NCBI RefSeq assembly: GCF_000195575.1
Contig: NC_015391.1
Location: 2,468,363 to 2,532,362, forward strand
Source of the DNA: Carnobacterium sp. 17-4
GTDB taxonomy: Bacteria; Bacillota; Bacilli; Lactobacillales; Carnobacteriaceae
Direction of reading: 5' to 3'
Length of the DNA stretch: 64,000 nucleotides
Shown here in pieces: positions 51,323 to 60,391 of this stretch. Every line of letters starts with the position of its first letter. Position 1 is the first letter of the stretch. The notes below the pieces were generated by a model. It saw nothing but the letters and a program-made list of their open reading frames with translations, was not told the origin of the DNA and did no database searches. A program made the translations under genes and the position numbers.

Positions 51323-51511
51323 TTATTTAGGTGTATCAGATATCTTTTCTGACATTACTAATTTCACTATTTTATTAACCATTTCTTGTATGAATTTTTT
51401 TACTCTGTTGCTAAACTCTTCACTGGAAAGATAATTAACTATTTGTGTTGTAATCATCAGTATAATTGCTTTGCCAGTTTTAACTACTAATTCTGAAACT
51501 GCTTTTTTCAT
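51323..51511 (-). CDS. Small hypothetical protein, second of a coupled pair (62 aa)
   Basis: 62-aa protein with a moderately hydrophobic, possibly amphipathic helix (AIILMITTQIVNYL) and a basic C-terminal half. Its ATG overlaps the stop of the gene in front by four bases (ATGA). Not recognised. A membrane-active peptide or structural partner of the 123-aa protein is possible; there is no motif to support a toxin call. Confidence 0.6.
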   Translation of the reverse strand: MKKAVSELVVKTGKAIILMITTQIVNYLSSEEFSNRVKKFIQEMVNKIVKLVMSEKISDTPK

Positions 51512-51879
51512 TTTTTAGTCTCCCTTTTCAACTCTTTCAGAATTTTTTTCAGGAATTTACTTTTTGTAGTTTTTTCTAAAAAGTCATAAGCTGAATAGGT
51601 CAGTTCTTTTTCGGAAATATTTTCATTAAGTTCTACTTCAGATTTTAACGAATAATATAAAGCTGTAGGTTTTAAATCGATACCGTTATTGAATTCTGAT
51701 AATTTATTGCTAACTTCGTTTTCAATTTGGAACTCTAAATCATCAGGTATAGTTTCAATAGGTAAAGATTTTCGATAACTTGAGATTTCATTATTGATGT
51801 TCTTTCTAAGAATTTGTGTGTTTTCTTTCTTAAATAGTTCCATATTAGCAACAACATTAGATAACTCTTTATTTTCCAT
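51508..51879 (-). CDS. Hypothetical protein, first of a coupled pair (123 aa)
   Basis: 123-aa hydrophilic, helix-rich protein, Glu/Lys/Asn heavy, without membrane segments or recognisable motifs. AGGGG lies 9 nt before the ATG. It is followed without gap by the 62-aa gene and then a terminator, and sits next to the restriction endonuclease on the same strand. Function unknown. Confidence 0.6.
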   Translation of the reverse strand: MENKELSNVVANMELFKKENTQILRKNINNEISSYRKSLPIETIPDDLEFQIENEVSNKLSEFNNGIDLKPTALYYSLKSEVELNENISEKELTYSAYDFLEKTTKSKFLKKILKELKRETKK

Positions 51880-52039: not shown

Positions 52040-53515
52040 TTAAATGAAATCAACTGAATTGAGCATATGGTTTATTACGCTCCCTTTTATCCAAACATTC
52101 TGTCTGTACATGTCGATTCCATTTATCGTTATAGTTTTATCACTGGAATCTCTTCCAGTGCCTCGGAAAAAAACATCATAGTCTTTAGATTTTGGAAAAC
52201 TGACAGACGTTTTTATTGTTCCATTCTTATTTATAACAGGTTCCCCGTTTTTATTAAGCATAACTTCCTCATGAAGATTATTATTAAAGACTTTATTTCT
52301 AACGTCATCCCAAATAAATTTCACTTGTTTCTCTAAGAAATCTTCACTAAAGATTACACGTTTAAAGCCTAACAACTTATTTGTTAAGAGCTTTTCTGAC
52401 TTATCTTGTTCTTCAAAAATAATGAATAGAAATTGTCTTTCACTAAAATCACTATAAAGTGACGAATCTTCAAAATTTATCTTCTCATCCAACCATTCAT
52501 CAAAATCAACTTTAAATAATTTAGTGTCTTCAGTACGCGTTCCTTGCTTAGTTTGAGTGATTGTTTTTGCAATCAAACCAATCTCACTGAATAACTCTAT
52601 TTTACCGATTTTTTTCGATTTTGCTCCAAACATTCGTGTAACGATTTGTTCAGTCACTGATTTTGATACATCTCCAGTTTGATTTAATTTCATAGGAATA
52701 TTTAGAATCTGAAGAAGTTCTTGAATAGTCTTATTCTTGTATTGTTTAGTGAATTGATTCAATTGTTCGTCTAGTTCTTCATATGTATTATATTCTTGTT
52801 CTAACTGTTCGAATTTTTTTCCAAAGTACTTTTGAACCATAGTTGTTACAGTAGACCTTTTCAATCTAAATCTAGGGCGGTTGGGCCACTTAGGTGCAGT
52901 GTCAATCAACATCAACTGTGGTCGTAACTCAGATGATATTCTTGGATAATGTTCTGTAGGGTCTTGATGAACAAGCTGCAAGTTATGTATGAAACTTCTG
53001 ACTATCTCCCAGTCATTCTTCAACTTTTCTCTATCTAAAGAATCAAATTCAAAGAAATCATAACCGACAATGGGGAATTTTGCGTACTCTGATGCAGGAA
53101 CAGTAACTTCCGAATCATAAAGATAATAAACTAAAAGAAGTCTTTCAAGTTTATGCCAGAAACTTGAATTTTCAAAACTTTCGTGCACTATCCTTTCTGG
53201 AGAAACAGCTGTTACAGACATCGGTTCTTTAGCTTCAAGTTCTCCACTTACTGATTTCTTTACTTTTCTTAAACCTGTTGTTTTTACTTCCACATCTTTC
53301 CCATCGACATACAAATCTGGTTTTTGATAAGAATCAGCTGGATACCCCAATATAGATTCCTCTACAACACTTCCTGCTATACCAGTGATTTTAGGATGTT
53401 TAACTGTTTTATAAAAAACATTATTTTGATCAACATCACCTAAGGTTTTACCAATAGTACTATCTAAAATATCTTCTAGTTCATCTTTAGCAAAAACGTG
53501 TCCATGCTCTCTCAT
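52040..53515 (-). CDS. Type II restriction endonuclease, Sau3AI family (predicted GATC)
   Basis: 491 aa, almost the length of Sau3AI. The N-terminal MutH-fold domain (about 15-240) carries the catalytic D-x8-ExK motif (D67 in KPDL, E76 and K78 in DVEVK), preceded by ITGIAGSVVEESILG as in MutH. The C-terminal half (about 258-491) matches the second, non-catalytic MutH-like domain of Sau3AI that binds DNA as an allosteric effector. GGAGGG before the ATG. It diverges from a C5 methyltransferase, the arrangement expected of a Sau3AI-type system. GATC specificity is inferred from family. Confidence 0.85.
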   Translation of the reverse strand: MREHGHVFAKDELEDILDSTIGKTLGDVDQNNVFYKTVKHPKITGIAGSVVEESILGYPADSYQKPDLYVDGKDVEVKTTGLRKVKKSVSGELEAKEPMSVTAVSPERIVHESFENSSFWHKLERLLLVYYLYDSEVTVPASEYAKFPIVGYDFFEFDSLDREKLKNDWEIVRSFIHNLQLVHQDPTEHYPRISSELRPQLMLIDTAPKWPNRPRFRLKRSTVTTMVQKYFGKKFEQLEQEYNTYEELDEQLNQFTKQYKNKTIQELLQILNIPMKLNQTGDVSKSVTEQIVTRMFGAKSKKIGKIELFSEIGLIAKTITQTKQGTRTEDTKLFKVDFDEWLDEKINFEDSSLYSDFSERQFLFIIFEEQDKSEKLLTNKLLGFKRVIFSEDFLEKQVKFIWDDVRNKVFNNNLHEEVMLNKNGEPVINKNGTIKTSVSFPKSKDYDVFFRGTGRDSSDKTITINGIDMYRQNVWIKGSVINHMLNSVDFI

Positions 53516-53657
53516 ACTTTACCCTCCAAAAAATTTATACAGATATGCAATAATTTATTTTATGGTCTAATAGTACCATTTTTTTGTACAAAACACTGGA
53601 TCTTTTCCGTGAATTGTTGTATAATAAATCTTAGCTTACCGAAAGGGTGTTCGTATT
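53516..53657. promoter_or_regulatory. Divergent promoter region of the restriction and methyltransferase genes
   Basis: A clear -10 TATAAT (53620-53625) precedes the methyltransferase. At 17 bp spacing the -35 would be TGGATC (53597-53602), which contains the system's predicted target GATC. An ATGGT / ACCAT inverted repeat (53562-53579) lies between the two genes and could be an operator. Methylation-sensitive autoregulation is possible. Confidence 0.55.
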
Positions 53658-54953
53658 ATGAGTAAACAGTTTAATATTTTAGAACTATTTGCTGGAGTTG
53701 GTGGATTTCGCGTTGGTTTTGAAAATTCCAATGAAAGCATGTTTAAAACAAAATGGGCAAATCAATGGGAGCCTGCTAAAAAGAGTCAAGACGCCTTCGA
53801 AGTGTATGATTATCATTATCCTGAGAGTATGAATATAAACGAAAATATAGAAGAAATTTCAGATGAAGCTTTTCAAAGTATGGATGCAGATATAATAGTT
53901 GGAGGTTTTCCTTGCCAAGATTACTCCGTTGCTAGAAGCAAAAAGAACGAACTTGGTATCCAAGGAAAAAAAGGCGTATTATTCTGGGAAATCATTCGAG
54001 CAGTTACTCAAATAAAACCAAAATATCTTGTTTTAGAAAATGTAGATCGTCTATTAAAAGCTCCTTCAAAACAACGAGGTAGAGATTTCGCAATCATGCT
54101 AGCTGCATTTAACGATTTAAACTATTCTGTAGAATGGCGTGTCATAAACGCCGCAGAATACGGAGGCAGTCAACGTCGTCGCCGTGTTTTCTTTTTCGTA
54201 TATCGGAACGATACTGACTTTGCAAAAAAAATGGATAAAGAATTTGAGAATGAAGAATTAGATTTATTTTTTGACAGCCAATTGTATGATGATTACATCT
54301 TTAATAAAGGTCTATTTGCACGTCAATTTCCGGTTTTACCAACACCAGTAAAAAACCGTCATGCTACTTATACATTATCAAATGACATTGTAGACATATC
54401 CGACAATTTTATAGGTACTGTTTGGAACACAGGAGTCATGAGACATGGACGTTATTTTACTATTGACACAGTACCTACAAAGGAAGAACAACCTATTACT
54501 TTAGGAGAAATATTGGTAGATGAAGAGAATGTTCCAGAAAAATATTATGTTACTGACCAAAATAAATTAGAGAAGTTTAAATACTTAAGAGGTTCTAAAA
54601 AAATCGAACGTATTTCTGTAGATGGACATTCTTATATTTATTCAGAAGGAAGTATGGCTCCAACAGATGATTTATCATTACCTGGAAGAACTATGTTAAC
54701 TTCTGAAGGAACCGTTAATCGCTCAACTCATTTTTTAAATGTAAATGGTAAATATAGATTAATAACACCTATTGAAGCAGAAAGACTACAAGAATTTCCT
54801 GATGATTGGACAAAATATAAAAAAAATTCTACTGGTGAAATAGTAGAAGTACCCGATCGTATGCGTATGTTCTTTATGGGGAATGCTTTAGTTACAGGTG
54901 TCGTAAAGAGAATTGCTGATGAGTTACAAAATATCATAACTCATGAAGATTAA
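53658..54953 (+). CDS. DNA (cytosine-5) methyltransferase, M.Sau3AI-like
   Basis: C5-cytosine methyltransferase of 431 aa with all main motifs in order: I FAGVGGFRVGF (about 11-21), IV GGFPCQDYSVA with the catalytic Cys near 87, VI ENVDRLL, VIII QRRRRVFFF, a target-recognition region about 200-350, IX TPIEAERLQEFP and X FFMGNALV. Its pairing with a Sau3AI-like nuclease predicts modification of the C in GATC. A bidirectional terminator follows. Confidence 0.93.
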   Translation: MSKQFNILELFAGVGGFRVGFENSNESMFKTKWANQWEPAKKSQDAFEVYDYHYPESMNINENIEEISDEAFQSMDADIIVGGFPCQDYSVARSKKNELGIQGKKGVLFWEIIRAVTQIKPKYLVLENVDRLLKAPSKQRGRDFAIMLAAFNDLNYSVEWRVINAAEYGGSQRRRRVFFFVYRNDTDFAKKMDKEFENEELDLFFDSQLYDDYIFNKGLFARQFPVLPTPVKNRHATYTLSNDIVDISDNFIGTVWNTGVMRHGRYFTIDTVPTKEEQPITLGEILVDEENVPEKYYVTDQNKLEKFKYLRGSKKIERISVDGHSYIYSEGSMAPTDDLSLPGRTMLTSEGTVNRSTHFLNVNGKYRLITPIEAERLQEFPDDWTKYKKNSTGEIVEVPDRMRMFFMGNALVTGVVKRIADELQNIITHED

Positions 54954-54975
54954 CTAACTTAACAAAACTATTAAG

Positions 54976-55020
54976 AACCACCTATTATTGTCCTTATAAG
55001 TGACAATAATAGGTGGTTTT
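54976..55020. terminator. Bidirectional terminator between methyltransferase and helicase
   Basis: Perfect 17-bp inverted repeat: the left arm starts AACCACC and the right arm ends GGTGGTT, with a 9-nt loop, flanked by TTTT on the plus strand and TTCTTAATAG on the minus strand. Confidence 0.9.
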
Positions 55021-55088
55021 AGCTTTGAGACAAGTCTATTGAGTTATAGATAAGATAGATTGAGACCTCCATAATCTTGTCTACGCAA

Positions 55089-57677
55089 TTAATAACGACG
55101 TTCTGAATCAATTATTTTTTTCATTTCTTCTATCTCATCATCTTCAAATTCCGGAGTAAGATAACCACCGTCAATAGCTTTTTTCATTCTATCTTCTTTT
55201 TCTGATAATTTATTGTATATTTTTTGGTCAATAAAATTAAACAATTTCATATCAGTAACTGTCATCAAATAATGATATCTAGTATGCTGATCATGCTGCA
55301 AACCTAGACGATGAATTCGATCTCTCGATTGAAGCATAAATGTAAGGTTATAATTATATTCAAAGTAAACTGCATCATGTACAATTGTATGCAGTGACAC
55401 TGATTCCCCCAAAGTATTAGGGTTTGATACTAGTACTTGTATCTCATTTGTATCTTCTTTAAATGTATGGATAATATCTTCACGCTCCTGCCGTGTAGTA
55501 CCTCCATAGATTAACTTCGTGTTGATTCCTTGTTGATTAAGGACATCAGTAATTTTCTTTAATGTATTAACAAATAATCCCCAAACGACTACTTTCCCGT
55601 GCTTCTTTACAATATCAATAACTAGTTGTATCCCTGCATTGAATTTTGGAGATTCTACTTTTGCTAAATCCCATTTTGCTACTTCATCTATTATCGAGTC
55701 TTGAATACTTGCCTCTAGCTCTTTTCGTGCTTTTATACTGATTTGATCATATGAGTCATTATCAATAGTGTCGTCCTCGCTAAATCCTAAATCACTATAA
55801 TTTATAGTTTGATTTACTAATTCAGGATTTGTTGATAGTTGTATCATTCTAATCCAAACCGTTAAAGGATTCTGTGCAGTTGTATAAATTATTTCAGAAA
55901 GTCTTAACTGCTCTACAGAAGGCGGCACTCTTATAAAATTATCTTCGTCTGCTGGTGGAACACCCAAGTCTTCTTTGCTTGTTCTCCAAAAATAAGGAGC
56001 AAGTTTTTCATTTATTTCTTCAACTTCCCAACTATCAGGATTCTTAAGCATGTTTTGCTCAAATCCAAAGTATGCACTGTACTCTTTTTCAAACAAAATA
56101 TGTAGAAAATTATATATATCTAAATATTTATTTGGAATGGGAGTACCTGTTAAAACATATCGATAATCAACTTTACCTGCAATTTCTAATGCAGCTATAG
56201 CCCTTTTTCCTTGTATCCCTTTTACACGATGGACCTCATCATAAACAATTATAGTATTTGAATCATAGGATAAGCATTTAATAATAGACTCTTGAAACTT
56301 AGGAAGTGACTCATAATTGACTAGAATCATATTTGCTGTTGACCACGATGCTTCTAAAATACGTTTGTCTCCATTTATTATTTCATCATGAATGCTTATT
56401 GCTTTTAATTCTTTTTTATTCTTAAATACTTCTTCAAATTCTTCCTTCCAAGACATAAACGCATTAAGAGGGCTAATCACTAATAACCGTTTAATAGGCT
56501 GCCCTTTGTTTTTGCTATTTAGATATGCAAAAACACCTAATAACATTGCTGTTTTTCCAGAACCAGGAACAGAAAAATTAGCTGCTCTTTTTTGAGTCAG
56601 CATATACATTGCTGACTCAAGTTGCAGTGGCTTGAGGGGCCTAGCTACTTCTCTCTCTACAATTCGTTTAAATTCATGAAATTCATTCTGCCATCGTGGG
56701 TCCTGATTTTTCAAAGTTAAACCCGATTTACGGTATTCTTCAATTGAATACTTTTGACTGCTCACAAAGTTTTCGATTCGAGAAGTAACTTTAAAATTAA
56801 AATTATGCTTATTAGATTGCTTATTTGCTAAGTCTACAATTTTTTCCACATCTCTATACGTCAAGTCTCTTCTAAAATAGGGATAACCTCTTTGTTGATC
56901 GACATATGCTACAAACTTAGTTTTAAAAGATTTTTTTAAAGTTATTTCTTCATCACTCTTATCAATAAAAAATATATATTCATCATTCATATCCAAGATT
57001 ACAGAATTATATTCTGGATTAGGTATTTTTTGAATTCTACCTATATCATACTCTTGAATTAACGAATAAATAGCTTTATTTGCATCAATAACTTTTACAC
57101 CTGGATATTCATCATTCCATAGACTCTCAAATTCTACTCTTTTTTGTTTAATTCTACTTCTAACATTCGTGCTTACATCCCAAGAAAAATCAACATCGAA
57201 TGAATCAAAATTATTTTCAATTGCATTCGCTGTCTCATTTAAGGATCCATTAAAATATATAGCATCTTTTTGTAAATCTTCAAATATTCCCCACTTGGTA
57301 TGAAATAAACCATTTTCAACTAAACCAAACTTTATATCGGCTTTATTTTTGGAAATTAGAAATGCTAGATTACCTAACCGTTGTTTATCAAGTTGCGTTA
57401 TACTTTCACTTTTAGAGCGCTCTTTATATCCAGACTGAATTTCACTAAAATCTTTTTCAGAAATATTTTGAGAGATAATAAATTGGATATAACCATCATT
57501 CTCAGAAAATCTATCCAATCCCTCAGCATACATAGATAATGCTTTACAAGAAAAGTAGCCACTGACTCTTTTATAACTAACTGACTCTTTTAATGTCCTG
57601 TTATAAAATTCTTCGGAAACATTGTCTTTCAATGAGTTATAACTTGATTTAAGTACGCCGTCTAATCTTTTAAGCAA
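55089..57677 (-). CDS. PLD-nuclease-like / SNF2 helicase fusion protein
   Basis: 862 aa. The N-terminal domain (about 1-200) has a single phospholipase-D-type HxK motif (H126, K128, with D134) followed by NGSLNE (143-148). From about 345 on is a SNF2/SF2 ATPase: Walker A PGSGKT (371-376), DEVH (480-483), LTGTPIPN (about 509), and the C-lobe with QSRDRIHRLG. The start is TTG 57677 with GAGGAGG 8 nt upstream, 3 bp after the ParB-like gene. It is last in a three-gene operon. A DNA translocase coupled to a nuclease, as in several anti-phage systems, is the likely role. Confidence 0.88.
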   Translation of the reverse strand: MLKRLDGVLKSSYNSLKDNVSEEFYNRTLKESVSYKRVSGYFSCKALSMYAEGLDRFSENDGYIQFIISQNISEKDFSEIQSGYKERSKSESITQLDKQRLGNLAFLISKNKADIKFGLVENGLFHTKWGIFEDLQKDAIYFNGSLNETANAIENNFDSFDVDFSWDVSTNVRSRIKQKRVEFESLWNDEYPGVKVIDANKAIYSLIQEYDIGRIQKIPNPEYNSVILDMNDEYIFFIDKSDEEITLKKSFKTKFVAYVDQQRGYPYFRRDLTYRDVEKIVDLANKQSNKHNFNFKVTSRIENFVSSQKYSIEEYRKSGLTLKNQDPRWQNEFHEFKRIVEREVARPLKPLQLESAMYMLTQKRAANFSVPGSGKTAMLLGVFAYLNSKNKGQPIKRLLVISPLNAFMSWKEEFEEVFKNKKELKAISIHDEIINGDKRILEASWSTANMILVNYESLPKFQESIIKCLSYDSNTIIVYDEVHRVKGIQGKRAIAALEIAGKVDYRYVLTGTPIPNKYLDIYNFLHILFEKEYSAYFGFEQNMLKNPDSWEVEEINEKLAPYFWRTSKEDLGVPPADEDNFIRVPPSVEQLRLSEIIYTTAQNPLTVWIRMIQLSTNPELVNQTINYSDLGFSEDDTIDNDSYDQISIKARKELEASIQDSIIDEVAKWDLAKVESPKFNAGIQLVIDIVKKHGKVVVWGLFVNTLKKITDVLNQQGINTKLIYGGTTRQEREDIIHTFKEDTNEIQVLVSNPNTLGESVSLHTIVHDAVYFEYNYNLTFMLQSRDRIHRLGLQHDQHTRYHYLMTVTDMKLFNFIDQKIYNKLSEKEDRMKKAIDGGYLTPEFEDDEIEEMKKIIDSERRY

Positions 57678-57680
57678 CTT

Positions 57681-58952
57681 TTATTCCTCCTCTAAAAGTA
57701 TGTAAGTGATTTCTTTTTGTAATTTTTCAAGTTCACTCAATAATTTATCTTTTTCGGATTTTGATAAATACTTAATTATGCTTCTATCAATAGAACTGAT
57801 ATTGTTAATAGCTTTTCCAACTAACTTTATTGGTTCAGTTCTTTCTTTTAAATTTTTAGTTTTTTCAGAATGATTGGTATAAATTGATTGTACCTCTGCT
57901 AACGCCTTGACAGTCTCTTCATTATTTTTTAACGTAGCAAATAAATCAACATTATTCATTATTACCTTTTTTGAATCCAATGCATCTACAATAACATCTG
58001 TTGCATCTTCCATCTCTGAAATAAATGTATTTTCAGCTTTAGTACCCACAACATTTTTAACTATGGTTCTAAAATCACCCTTATAGTCTTCTTTTGTAGC
58101 TCTAAGTTGCAGTATCTTAGCGAACAAACTATTTAATAGTTGATCTGAATTAACAGCACCTTTAAACTTTTTGTATTGAGGTATTAGATCTTGTATAGGA
58201 CCATCTAAATCTAATTCTTTAGCTAATGAATAATTTTCTGGGTTCGCATTGGTAAAATCTAAAAATTTAACTATAAGTTCTGCTTCAGTTAGACGCTTAG
58301 GTATTTCATTTTTAGGTAGGTTTGCATACTCAGTATATTCTTTAGCCGTCATTATGTTATTTACGACTATCGTTTTATACGCATCTATCGCTCGGTCTAT
58401 TGCGTTATAATCCACCTTATCAAGTTTCCCAAATTGAATTTTCAGTTCTAATGATTTAATTTTCTTAAGATCATCCTGATTTTGGACAGACAAATCATCA
58501 AGTATAACCGCTTCAAAATATTGTTGCCCAATTATCTCAGGATCTTGTTCAAGTAATCTTTTTGCTGTAAAGCGACGATTGCCATCAATTACACGTCCAT
58601 CATTCAATACATATCCAGGTTCGTCTTGTCCTTGAATATTAATATTTCTTTTGAGAGCCTTCATTCCATCTTTAGTTTTACTTTCTCCATCATTTTCTAA
58701 AAACTTTTGAATAACCATATTGTACTCTTCATTATGTCCGGGAGTTAGTTTGCCATTAGTACTTTCATAATCTGATAGTGCTACACCTATACGTCCATTT
58801 TGTTCGTTATAATATAAATAATCTAATGGAATTGCATATGTTTTACCACTATATTTTTCTCCATTAGGCTTTTCAATCTGCACACTTATATTATGTCCGC
58901 CTTCTTTTACAATTCCAGACTTATATAAGTCTAATAAATCAACATTCCTCAT
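57681..58952 (-). CDS. ParB-box (ParB/Srx-fold) protein
   Basis: 423 aa. The N-terminal third has a ParB/Spo0J-like box: the YAIPLDYLYYN strand (about 39-49), then NDGRVIDGNRRFTAKRLL (about 117-134), the counterpart of the GHRR-type nucleotide/phosphate-binding motif. The rest is helical with charged heptads and a Lys/Glu-rich end. ATG 58952 has AGGAG about 10 nt ahead. It is far from any parA, so segregation is unlikely; ParB-fold proteins in defence loci act as CTP/ATP-binding switches or nucleases. The function here is not known. Confidence 0.75.
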   Translation of the reverse strand: MRNVDLLDLYKSGIVKEGGHNISVQIEKPNGEKYSGKTYAIPLDYLYYNEQNGRIGVALSDYESTNGKLTPGHNEEYNMVIQKFLENDGESKTKDGMKALKRNINIQGQDEPGYVLNDGRVIDGNRRFTAKRLLEQDPEIIGQQYFEAVILDDLSVQNQDDLKKIKSLELKIQFGKLDKVDYNAIDRAIDAYKTIVVNNIMTAKEYTEYANLPKNEIPKRLTEAELIVKFLDFTNANPENYSLAKELDLDGPIQDLIPQYKKFKGAVNSDQLLNSLFAKILQLRATKEDYKGDFRTIVKNVVGTKAENTFISEMEDATDVIVDALDSKKVIMNNVDLFATLKNNEETVKALAEVQSIYTNHSEKTKNLKERTEPIKLVGKAINNISSIDRSIIKYLSKSEKDKLLSELEKLQKEITYILLEEE

Positions 58953-58968
58953 TATCAACAATCTCCTA

Positions 58969-59676
58969 TCAACTAATTATTTCTTCTACATACTTTACAT
59001 TGAACCAAAATCTTTGTTTTACGATTCTTTGACCTGTGGGCAATAAAAGTTTATCACTGCCATTCTTAGCTCCTGGCCTCAAGTGGCCCAGCTCATTAAA
59101 TTTACTAGATGGCAAATTGTTTTTATTAACAATTCGACCATTTCTTTGCTCTAAAGAAGTAATTTCAAGTTTGTTCTGCTTTATCAAATATCTTACTTCT
59201 GACCAGATTTCTTTGAGACCATGAGTTAAATCGTAGTCAGACATCTTCCAAACTTTCACACCTAAAAAAGTCATTTCATCATCATCAACTCGTTTACCAC
59301 TTGGATATTGTTGAAATATAAAGAATACTAATACCTTCTCATTAAAGTATGTAAATAACGAACTACTTTCCCAGTAAGTATCGCTAACCCATTCTTCAAA
59401 ATTTACTGGCATAAAAGACATTGCTTCCGCGGGCTTTTCCATTCCAGTTAAACGAACAGTTTTCAAAAGAGCATTTATCTGTCCATCACAAAGTTCAAAC
59501 TTATTTCCTTTGATTCTCATTAACTTTAATGCTAATTGAACAAAGGACGCTTTATTATCTTTATGTGCCATACCTAATAATTCTTTCAGTTCAGAAACTT
59601 TTTTCCCCTTATAAATTTGAATTTTTTCATCAACTTCAGCTTGAGCAGAAGCAATTAGCACTTCATTCTGACTCAT
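58969..59676 (-). CDS. Stand-alone Sau3AI C-terminal (MutH-fold) domain protein
   Basis: 235 aa. Its whole length aligns by eye with residues about 258-491 of the endonuclease encoded at 52040. FEEWVSDTYWESSSLFTYFN corresponds to FDEWLDEKINFEDSSLYSDF, KEIWSEVRYLIKQNKLE to KFIWDDVRNKVFNNNLHEE, and the GSDK and FWFNVKYVEEII end to SSDK and VWIKGSVINHML. No D...ExK motif is present, so it should bind but not cut DNA. AGGAGG precedes the ATG. It is first in the operon with the ParB-box and PLD-helicase genes. Confidence 0.78.
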   Translation of the reverse strand: MSQNEVLIASAQAEVDEKIQIYKGKKVSELKELLGMAHKDNKASFVQLALKLMRIKGNKFELCDGQINALLKTVRLTGMEKPAEAMSFMPVNFEEWVSDTYWESSSLFTYFNEKVLVFFIFQQYPSGKRVDDDEMTFLGVKVWKMSDYDLTHGLKEIWSEVRYLIKQNKLEITSLEQRNGRIVNKNNLPSSKFNELGHLRPGAKNGSDKLLLPTGQRIVKQRFWFNVKYVEEIIS

Positions 59677-59724: not shown

Positions 59725-59846
59725 ATAGATTTCTTAACGCTCTAAGTATAGCAATGATATCTAGAAAAGTTAATCTCTTTTCTTAATACTGTATCATTCA
59801 GGTCTATAATTATTTTTGATAGTTATTAGATACTCTATCCGTGTAT
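59725..59846. repeat. 122-bp direct repeat, right copy
   Basis: Second copy of the 47076-47197 repeat, same orientation, seven mismatches. It begins ATAGATTTCTTAACGCTC immediately upstream of the three-gene operon and ends where a helicase remnant begins. Confidence 0.9.
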
Positions 59847-60041
59847 TTGCTAAGAAATCGGATAACGAAGGTACTGAATTTTATTATCTAGGAGAAGTAA
59901 AACCAGTCAAAGAATCTATTATAGAGTTAGAAAAAACCACTTCAAAATGGCGAAAAGAAAAAAGTTGTCGAAATGTTTTTGAAGTTTTCAGAACCAATTG
60001 ATGTGAATTTATATCGTTATTTGGAAGCTGGACAAGAATGA
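59847..60041 (+). pseudogene. 3' fragment of a DUF3427-type superfamily II helicase
   Basis: AKKSDNEGTEFYYLGEVKPV resembles the C-terminal domain of DUF3427 helicases. The reading frame shifts in an A run near 59965 and then gives VVEMFLKFSEPIDVNLYRYL and a stop at 60041. Only about 60 residues remain. It shows that a helicase gene was truncated at the right repeat. Confidence 0.6.
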
Positions 60042-60110
60042 TATTGGGAATAAATGTAATCATAAGGGTGTTGAATTGATCTCTTAACTATTTTAATTTA
60101 AAATTTGACT

Positions 60111-60153
60111 TATCAAAAAAGAGCAGTAGCTGATTTCAGCTGCTGCTCTTTTG
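60111..60153 (-). terminator. Terminator of the 43-aa ORF
   Basis: AAAAGAGCAGTAGCTGA / TCAGCTGCTGCTCTTTT hairpin with T runs on both sides. It lies 15 bp past the stop of the small minus-strand gene. Confidence 0.88.
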
Positions 60154-60165
60154 CTATACCAAAGA

Positions 60166-60297
60166 TTACTTATTAAAAATCTTCGGACCTTTGCGCATGT
60201 TTTTCATATCATTCTTTGGATCAGTTGTTTGTTTAGACTTTCCGCCACCTGCTTGTTTCTTTTTAATTATCTCTAACATTTTCTCTTTTGAATTCAC
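60166..60297 (-). CDS. Small basic hypothetical protein (43 aa)
   Basis: Starts at GTG 60297 (GGTGG about 9 nt ahead on the minus strand) and encodes 43 aa: a helix EKMLEIIKKK, a glycine turn QAGGGKSK, and a basic end MRKGPKIFNK. It has its own strong terminator. Not recognised. Good signals at both ends support a real small gene. Confidence 0.6.
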   Translation of the reverse strand: MNSKEKMLEIIKKKQAGGGKSKQTTDPKNDMKNMRKGPKIFNK

Positions 60298-60391
60298 TTA
60301 TCACACCACCTTTATACTTGTAATGATAAAAACCTAATTTGCCATATGAGATTATATTTGATTGCTACATTTGTATTTTGAATCAATCCCA

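Follow-up and report, generated by a model that had tools for sequence, protein, structure and literature searches.

In this study, we analysed a 64,000-nucleotide stretch of Carnobacterium sp. 17-4 (contig NC_015391.1, positions 2,468,363 to 2,532,362), which as a whole is referred to here as the window, and we describe a five-gene locus in which a Sau3AI-type restriction-modification pair adjoins a three-gene operon that probably encodes an ATP-dependent restriction arm guided by GATC sites (Table 1). Calling of open reading frames (ORFs) recovered all five genes, and their coordinates, strands and intergenic gaps of 16 and 3 bp agree with those given in a preliminary description of this DNA. 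The genes for the restriction endonuclease (REase) and the methyltransferase (MTase) are divergent, and the MTase gene is convergent with the operon, which runs from position 59676 down to 55089 in the order MutH-C, ParB-fold protein and PLD-SNF2 protein; the larger gap separates the first two genes, when the ParB gene is counted from its ATG, and the smaller one the last two. The inverted repeat between the MTase gene and the operon is, from its sequence, likely to be a bidirectional terminator. Loci, genomes and plasmids used for comparison are designated below by L, G and W numbers.

Table 1. Features of the locus, with positions counted from the first nucleotide of the window
Feature	Position	Strand	Remarks
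Sau3AI-type restriction endonuclease (REase), 491 aa	52040..53515	-	N-terminal MutH-type catalytic domain and C-terminal effector domain
C5-cytosine methyltransferase (MTase), M.Sau3AI type, 431 aa	53658..54953	+	Pfam PF00145
Perfect inverted repeat, 16+16 bp	54977..55017	.	Between two convergent gene ends; read by eye
PLD-SNF2 ATPase, PbeA-like, 862 aa	55089..57677	-	TTG start
ParB-fold protein, 426 aa	57681..58961	-	First start TTG, ATG at 58952
Stand-alone Sau3AI C-terminal (effector) domain (MutH-C), 235 aa	58969..59676	-	Without catalytic domain
Scar of a lost SauUSI-type gene, 477 bp	59836..60312	+	Adjoins the operon's upstream edge; outside the system

The first protein of the operon aligns solely to positions 244-474 of the Sau3AI model NF040973 (E 1.4e-37), and a profile of its family (A3, which includes the window protein) matches the Sau3AI C-domain chains 2reu (E 8e-31) and 7xm0 (E 6e-31) as well as residues 254-508 of 4pxg. 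The catalytic N-terminal domain was not found in the product of 58969-59676, and the E-x-K column of A3 reads LLK in the window row. As judged from these alignments, which extend over the whole C-domain, the protein corresponds to the effector half of Sau3AI and lacks the half that cuts. An effector-domain role has been described for the C-terminal half of Sau3AI (PMC548270). Proteins of similar length are encoded in L028, L029 and L030 (236, 236 and 254 aa), and no relatives of MutH-C were found in viral contigs.

The REase of the window is, by its sequence, a divergent relative of Sau3AI. It matches Pfam MutH (2e-19), the PADLOC model REase_II PDLC03570 (504 bits) and NF040973 (E 3e-48), its closest PDB chain is 4pxg (Sau3AI; E 4.8e-13), and a D...E-x-K catalytic motif is found at residues 66-78. 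Since the NF040973 score of 164.8 bits is under the model's 300-bit equivalog cut-off, the GATC specificity of the REase rests on homology and on its MTase. The latter matches Pfam DNA_methylase PF00145 (8e-63), carries the C5 motifs PCQ, ENV, QRR and GN, and is 83% identical to a gene on a Jeotgalibaca porci plasmid; with the MTase that stands beside a Sau3AI orthologue in L074 it shares 42% identity in residues 201-260 and 50% in residues 261-320.

Neither Pfam nor NCBIfam assigns the 426-aa protein to ParB. Its AlphaFold model (mean pLDDT 88.8) has structural matches to ParB, Noc and KorB, and on this model the protein has a ParB N-domain and helix-turn-helix (HTH) fold, as in these DNA clamps. 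A sequence search of PDB chains with the ParB family returned only coiled-coil and kinesin noise, so that the identity rests on the fold, and in profile comparison the alignments of the family to the host's own two ParB-family proteins were too weak for a claim of sequence homology. Four records with distant ParB matches were found in a phage collection. The CTP motifs of ParB clamps are GxRRxxA and ENxQR. The window protein carries GNRRFTA at residue 127, and its residues E172 and Q176, which are invariant in 52 sequences of the family, are spaced one residue further apart than in ENxQR; it thus differs from the ParB, Noc and KorB CTP clamps in having E-x3-Q for ENxQR and in its position in an operon with a motor-nuclease.

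The 862-aa protein is, from its sequence motifs, predicted to be a PLD nuclease and an SNF2 motor, both with intact motifs. Its SNF2 domain is recognized at 3e-21, and its PLD-like domain at 6e-5 (23.3 bits, under the Pfam cut-off of 27 bits, with values of up to E 3e-10 in relatives); HTK at residue 126, GSLNE at 144, Walker A PGSGKT at 371, DEVH at 480, LTGTP at 509 and QSRDR at 783 were identified. The best PADLOC model for this protein is PbeA (PDLC02707; E 9e-62), and all 13 family members scanned match a PbeA model.

Vagococcus, Psychrobacillus and Bacillus have the three genes in the same order, with a protein identity of 61-77%, and a more distant copy of the operon is present in Macrococcus. 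Between L028 and L029 the dN/dS values are 0.06/0.38 for MutH-C and 0.04/0.52 and 0.04/0.45 for the other two genes, indicating purifying selection. The arrangement is therefore not due to chance, as the same order recurs in other genera and is under purifying selection. In the copy of Macrococcus lamae (L031, 3262-4107) the MutH-C gene is frameshifted or mis-assembled and the ParB and PLD-SNF2 ORFs are open. At the locus of Vagococcus proximus (L030, 7994-9208) an AspBHI-like endonuclease gene (PF18062 3e-45 and Mrr_cat) lies between the full REase gene and the MutH-C gene.

An M.Sau3AI-like MTase is present in all 14 genomes or plasmids that encode a nuclease-less reader (12 non-redundant loci and the near-copies L028 and L109; L097, a 138-aa fragment at a contig end, is left out of this count), in ten of them at 52-66% identity and in the window, L030, L050 and L059 within 7 kb. 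A Sau3AI-type REase with D...E-x-K was found in eight of the 14 (window, L030, L050, L059, G690, G691, G692 and W01; the motif was checked in all eight), including all five members of the window's own clade (window, L030, G690, G691 and G692). No catalytic Sau3AI was found in the remaining six (genomes G693-G696 and plasmids W02 and W03), whose assemblies may be incomplete; versions of Planococcus and L. plantarum belong to this group without the REase. Comparison of these genomes shows that the trio travels with an MTase of predicted M.Sau3AI type, with or without catalytic Sau3AI. Sau3AI itself is rare, being present in five of 398 Bacillota genomes, the window's own included (four of 397 without it), and a full Sau3AI gene lies within 7 kb of 13 of the 60 non-window ParB-SNF2 loci. 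In the same Bacillota sample, the only non-window genome with both Sau3AI and the ParB family has them adjacent (L130). In Staphylococcus sp. ACRSN (L074, 6977-15931), a Sau3AI orthologue (E 2.6e-250 to 4pxg) and its MTase are located directly behind genes for a winged-helix protein, ParB and SNF2 on the same strand, and thus a textbook enzyme family has operon partners of which we found no description. A 729-aa AIPR-domain protein (L127, 5891-8080), inside which there is a short MutH-C-like match, is encoded near another Sau3AI-type REase.

Nuclease-less readers also occur in other arrangements. A fusion form (L035, L048, L050, L059, L063 and L065, and the plasmids L108 and L109) consists of proteins of about 510 aa that begin with the MutH-C domain and show homology to the winged-helix protein in their C-terminal half; in this fusion clade MutH-C is upstream of ParB. 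Plasmid L110 of L. plantarum carries its stand-alone MutH-C gene 3 bp downstream of SNF2, and further on a Vsr gene is found on the opposite strand. The association therefore survives rearrangement. A first tree of 33 rows (20 full REases and 13 nuclease-less proteins; L113, an Exiguobacterium plasmid protein without a ParB gene in the stretch fetched, is among the rows) required four changes, at least three of which are forced by well-supported branches, and a second tree of 29 rows, from which the long branches L113, L059_nl, L051 and L037 were dropped, required three, at least two of them forced. The nuclease-less domains fall in three or four places of these trees, and in the first tree the MutH-C of L110 is sister to the Sau3AI orthologue (support 97/89). 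A single clade of nuclease-less domains is rejected by the approximately unbiased (AU) test (p 0.012 with 13 rows and 0.009 with 11 rows), which indicates at least two origins of nuclease-less readers if the nuclease was lost rather than gained.

The ParB-SNF2 pair is found more widely than MutH-C. Among the genomes of the order, the ParB query was found in 12 of 295, including the window's own, and in 12 of 12 it is directly followed by an SNF2 gene; the ParB profile A1 was found in six of 398 Bacillota genomes (E 1e-20). From the scan of genome contigs the best 80 of 139 ParB relatives were kept, ranked by closeness to the window ParB. A ParB of the family is present in 100 of the 103 loci collected from contigs, plasmids and genomes, and after 18 with at least 90% ParB identity were dropped, 82 non-redundant loci were left. 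An SNF2 ATPase is encoded directly downstream in 61 of these (59 of the 61 were used in one comparison, owing to length limits). Fifteen of the other 21 have a longer ParB (570-611 aa) followed by a winged-helix protein, with no SNF2 directly downstream; this form is mostly Clostridial (L045, L067, L068, L072, L073, L080, L081, L084, L085, L093, L094, L098, L102, L104 and L107).

The partners of the 61 pairs are a nuclease-less MutH-C in 13 (including the doubtful L097; five of them also have a full Sau3AI within 7 kb), full Sau3AI only in nine, type III Mod/Res in five (six with L086, counted as type III by hand on account of a 123-aa Res fragment at the contig edge), a C5 MTase of the Sau3AI-like family without MutH-C in six, another C5 MTase in four, a winged-helix protein with no MTase detected in 21, and others in three (L079, L082 and L086). 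The MTases of the six C5-only loci share 13-19% identity with the window MTase in residues 201-260 and 16-33% in residues 261-320, whereas those beside Sau3AI or MutH-C share 23-63% and 31-68%, respectively, and for this reason the C5-only class probably has another specificity. Type III Mod/Res genes followed by the ParB-SNF2 pair were found in Lactococcus, Enterococcus, Mammaliicoccus and others. In L002, L003, L021, L026, L027, L058 and L087 (Lactobacillales and Mammaliicoccus) the ends of the Mod/Res, ParB-fold and SNF2 genes often overlap, and the annotation in L002 and L003 reads ParB N-terminal domain-containing or hypothetical protein, in L002 also DEAD/DEAH box helicase. An Actinobacterial form (L091 and L101, with the near-copies L090, L095 and L103) consists of a 1127-aa ResIII-domain protein, a 437-aa winged-helix-type protein, ParB and a 650-aa SNF2 protein. 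A model of the winged-helix protein (pLDDT 87.1, pTM 0.56) contains helix-hairpin-helix units, a sigma-like HTH and a long helix-helix-helix-strand-strand run that we read, from the model, as winged helices; Pfam lists Sigma70_r4 and a weak HhH, and the best Foldseek matches are a TFIIIC subunit, UFL1 and SelB, all with low TM-scores. A PLD domain is present in all 12 nuclease-less-reader loci versus 25 of 48 others (Fisher p 0.0019, with rows that are not independent), in six of six loci with a C5 MTase only and in none of six type III loci, where Res is present (in L086 as a remnant at the contig edge). There is thus a tendency for PLD to supply the cut where the operon has no other nuclease.

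In comparison with known systems, the window shares with the Sau3AI/M.Sau3AI type II system the REase layout, with its MutH-type catalytic and effector domains, and the adjoining C5 MTase, but it has in addition a nuclease-less effector domain, a ParB-fold protein and a PLD-SNF2 motor. CglI and NgoAVII consist of a PLD nuclease subunit with a B3-type reader, a separate SF2 subunit and a C5 methyltransferase. The H subunit of CglI belongs to the SWI2/SNF2 clade (PMC7159879). By description rather than by sequence, the window resembles these two systems in that a C5 MTase, a PLD nuclease, an SNF2-clade ATPase and a DNA reader are distributed over several subunits; however, its PLD is fused to the ATPase, its reader is separate and MutH-like, and the ParB-fold protein is extra. 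No B3 domain is listed by Pfam in the five window proteins. In SauUSI, target recognition drives ATP hydrolysis, translocation and the shredding of DNA between sites (PMC7913695). The window protein is like SauUSI in having its PLD nuclease and SF2 motor on a single polypeptide, whereas its reader is separate and its target would be unmethylated GATC. As a member of the SauUSI type the 862-aa protein was rejected, as Pfam finds no DUF3427 in it; the full PLD-helicase-DUF3427 type is present in L159.

PbeA has been described as a fusion of an HKD DNase with an SF2 helicase (PMC10853773), and a PLD-SF2 protein of this type is present in the window. However, a ParB fold and MutH-C stand in place of PbeB, PbeC and PbeD: among the seven locus proteins submitted to PADLOC there was no match to PbeB, PbeC (CxC ABC-ATPase) or PbeD (DndE-like), and membership of PbeABCD was rejected. 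With DISARM the locus shares a methyltransferase, an SNF2-type ATPase and a PLD nuclease; membership was likewise rejected, as PADLOC lists no DrmB for the same seven proteins, and its DrmA and DrmD matches are confined to weak ones with the SNF2 protein. Type III Mod/Res systems elsewhere have the same ParB-SNF2 pair behind them, although SNF2 is there without PLD. Restriction-modification operons with SWI2/SNF2 or HKD-helicase genes around MutL-like ATPases have been described, ParB being unmentioned in the part of that article available (PMC2292703). We found no description of the three-gene operon in the full-text literature, a scope that leaves out most subscription journals and all preprints, nor did we meet it in the available parts of PMC10853773, PMC12839542, PMC3710099, PMC548270, PMC10952713, PMC2292703, PMC7159879 and PMC7913695.

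We suggest, with a probability of about 0.6, that the operon encodes a restriction arm that is ATP-dependent and guided by GATC, and that makes shared use of the neighbouring MTase for self-protection. The best reading of the comparative data is that this arm can stand alone with the MTase, and that in the window it sits beside a classical type II system. The MutH-C protein would bind GATC that lacks the methyl mark, and the ParB-fold protein would be loaded at the bound site, hold or slide on the DNA and recruit or switch on the PLD-SNF2 protein, which in turn may translocate and cleave at a distance from the site, in a manner similar to SauUSI, which has a target-recognition domain of its own. 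As the trio in this genome would act beside a classical REase, DNA that evades one of them may still encounter the other. The preliminary description had tied the operon to GATC-type restriction-modification, and in this it is upheld by the constant presence of the M.Sau3AI-like MTase; the three genes were also found together elsewhere, accompanied by such an MTase and in no named system that we could find. Its proposal of a second layer added to classical restriction holds for the window's clade and for L050, L059 and L108, which keep an REase, but not for the other six with the nuclease-less form only. The ParB-SNF2 pair also extends beyond GATC, to type III Mod/Res, other C5 MTases and the winged-helix array.

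Several observations weigh against the restriction-arm reading. A full REase accompanies more than half of the nuclease-less readers and all of the window's clade, so that the module is there not the only arm. The REase and MTase of the window are of GATC type by homology only, the REase being remote from Sau3AI, and with E-x3-Q in place of ENxQR, CTP hydrolysis by the ParB-fold protein is unsure. The direction of change in the trees, nuclease lost versus gained, is assumed, and window-type and fusion-type readers as one clade are not rejected (AU p 0.21), separate origins of these two not being significant alone. A sample made of the closest ParB relatives favours the window's kin. Moreover, 25 of the 61 ParB-SNF2 loci have no C5 or type III MTase within 7 kb, 21 of them with a winged-helix protein (in L029, which is among the 25, the MTase is 26 kb away), and no other MTase classes were flagged at these loci by a motif screen that was only a crude one; the core pair therefore need not serve restriction-modification everywhere. 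Finally, PLD is also present in seven of nine loci with full Sau3AI only and in nine of 21 winged-helix loci without MTase, and this, in loci that are not independent, makes the nuclease rule only a tendency.

The region next to the operon differs between genomes of the genus. The scar at the upstream edge matches an intact 961-aa PLD-helicase-DUF3427 gene with 88-91% identity over the final 0.2 kb of that gene and the 0.27 kb that follow, and Pfam DUF3427 is detected in an ORF at 59816-60001 (E 2.6e-8). An intact SauUSI-type gene is found 2.9-6.9 kb from rpsI in three of five same-genus genomes (L159, L160 and L161), and the two others gave no match to it in the 15 kb fetched. Going by these similarities, the GATC locus sits at a variable spot where a restriction gene of the modified-cytosine type was lost. 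A swap of the SauUSI-type gene for the GATC locus would make sense, since modified-cytosine restriction and a GATm5C MTase might be incompatible. At the other end of the locus, two small overlapping ORFs 3' of the REase gene (51323-51511 and 51508-51879; 62 and 123 aa) have no convincing family matches. GATC is under-represented across the window (166 sites versus 208 +- 13 in dinucleotide shuffles), an observation that we do not use as support.

Other explanations of the operon have to be considered. The trio might be a regulator or safety device that senses under-methylated GATC and either controls the type II pair or serves as a backup to it, for instance through cell killing or dormancy upon a failure of methylation. 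The catalytic REase kept throughout the window's clade (5/5) and in 8/14 overall would be consistent with this, as would the proposal that ParB-superfamily proteins of conflict systems act suicidally (PMC10853773). However, in the six of 14 in which no catalytic Sau3AI was found there is no such REase to regulate, even if for two of them the search covered a single plasmid each rather than the chromosome, and the PLD nuclease is kept in every nuclease-less-reader locus (12/12); we regard this explanation as unlikely. Somewhat less likely still is an independent defence system that merely lies beside restriction-modification genes in a defence island, with MutH-C as an accessory DNA-binding protein and no functional link to the MTase. 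Defence genes cluster in general, and such a system would fit the 25 of 61 loci in which no C5 or type III MTase was detected, but it leaves unaccounted for the co-presence of the MTase in 14 of 14, the full Sau3AI within 7 kb at 13/60 loci against its occurrence anywhere in 4/397 non-window genomes, the separate positions of nuclease-less readers in the tree, and an association that survives rearrangement in L110 and the fusion clade.

It has also to be asked whether the module is type IV-like and attacks foreign GATC modification, such as N6-methyladenine, as a complement to the REase for unmethylated sites. MutH-family domains can discriminate between GATC methylation states, the neighbourhood once held a SauUSI-type gene and the Vagococcus locus contains an AspBHI-like gene; yet the Sau3AI-type C5 MTase that is kept in 14/14 is what a reader of unmethylated GATC requires, and we consider the type IV-like module improbable. 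The 235-aa ORF might instead be the remains of a second Sau3AI gene that has decayed beside an ordinary PLD-helicase operon, but this possibility is disfavoured and very improbable indeed: coverage of only the C-terminal half of the Sau3AI model and the state of the Macrococcus copy would fit with decay, whereas the similar lengths in L028, L029 and L030, purifying selection between L028 and L029 and the other nuclease-less copies elsewhere argue against it.

Beyond the proposed GATC-guided restriction arm, the ParB-SNF2 pair has the appearance of a platform to which various DNA readers can be fitted interchangeably; in line with this, the same MutH-C domain is fused in L035, L048, L050, L059, L063 and L065 to a region related to the C-terminal half of the winged-helix protein. 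It is conceivable, though we put this forward only tentatively, that the pair represents an undescribed general restriction platform, in which a nucleotide-gated ParB-type clamp and an SNF2 motor are combined with plug-in readers, and with PLD where there is no other nuclease, so that restriction would start at the site of the reader and spread by sliding of the clamp. The readers might then, on an equally tentative view, be the Sau3AI effector half, type III Mod/Res, the winged-helix array or nothing beyond the C5 MTase. Such a platform would be a chromosome-segregation device turned to self/non-self discrimination.

If the restriction-arm reading is correct, the effector half of a type II enzyme has, probably on more than one occasion, been separated from its nuclease and taken over by an ATP-dependent restriction complex as its target reader. 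This would provide a route between types of restriction-modification and place the ParB clamp fold at the centre of restriction. One ParB-SNF2 core would be predicted to serve type II, type III and other modification systems, and with a shared core of this kind, genes annotated as 'hypothetical' beside restriction-modification operons in Bacilli and Clostridia may be parts of the restriction machinery.

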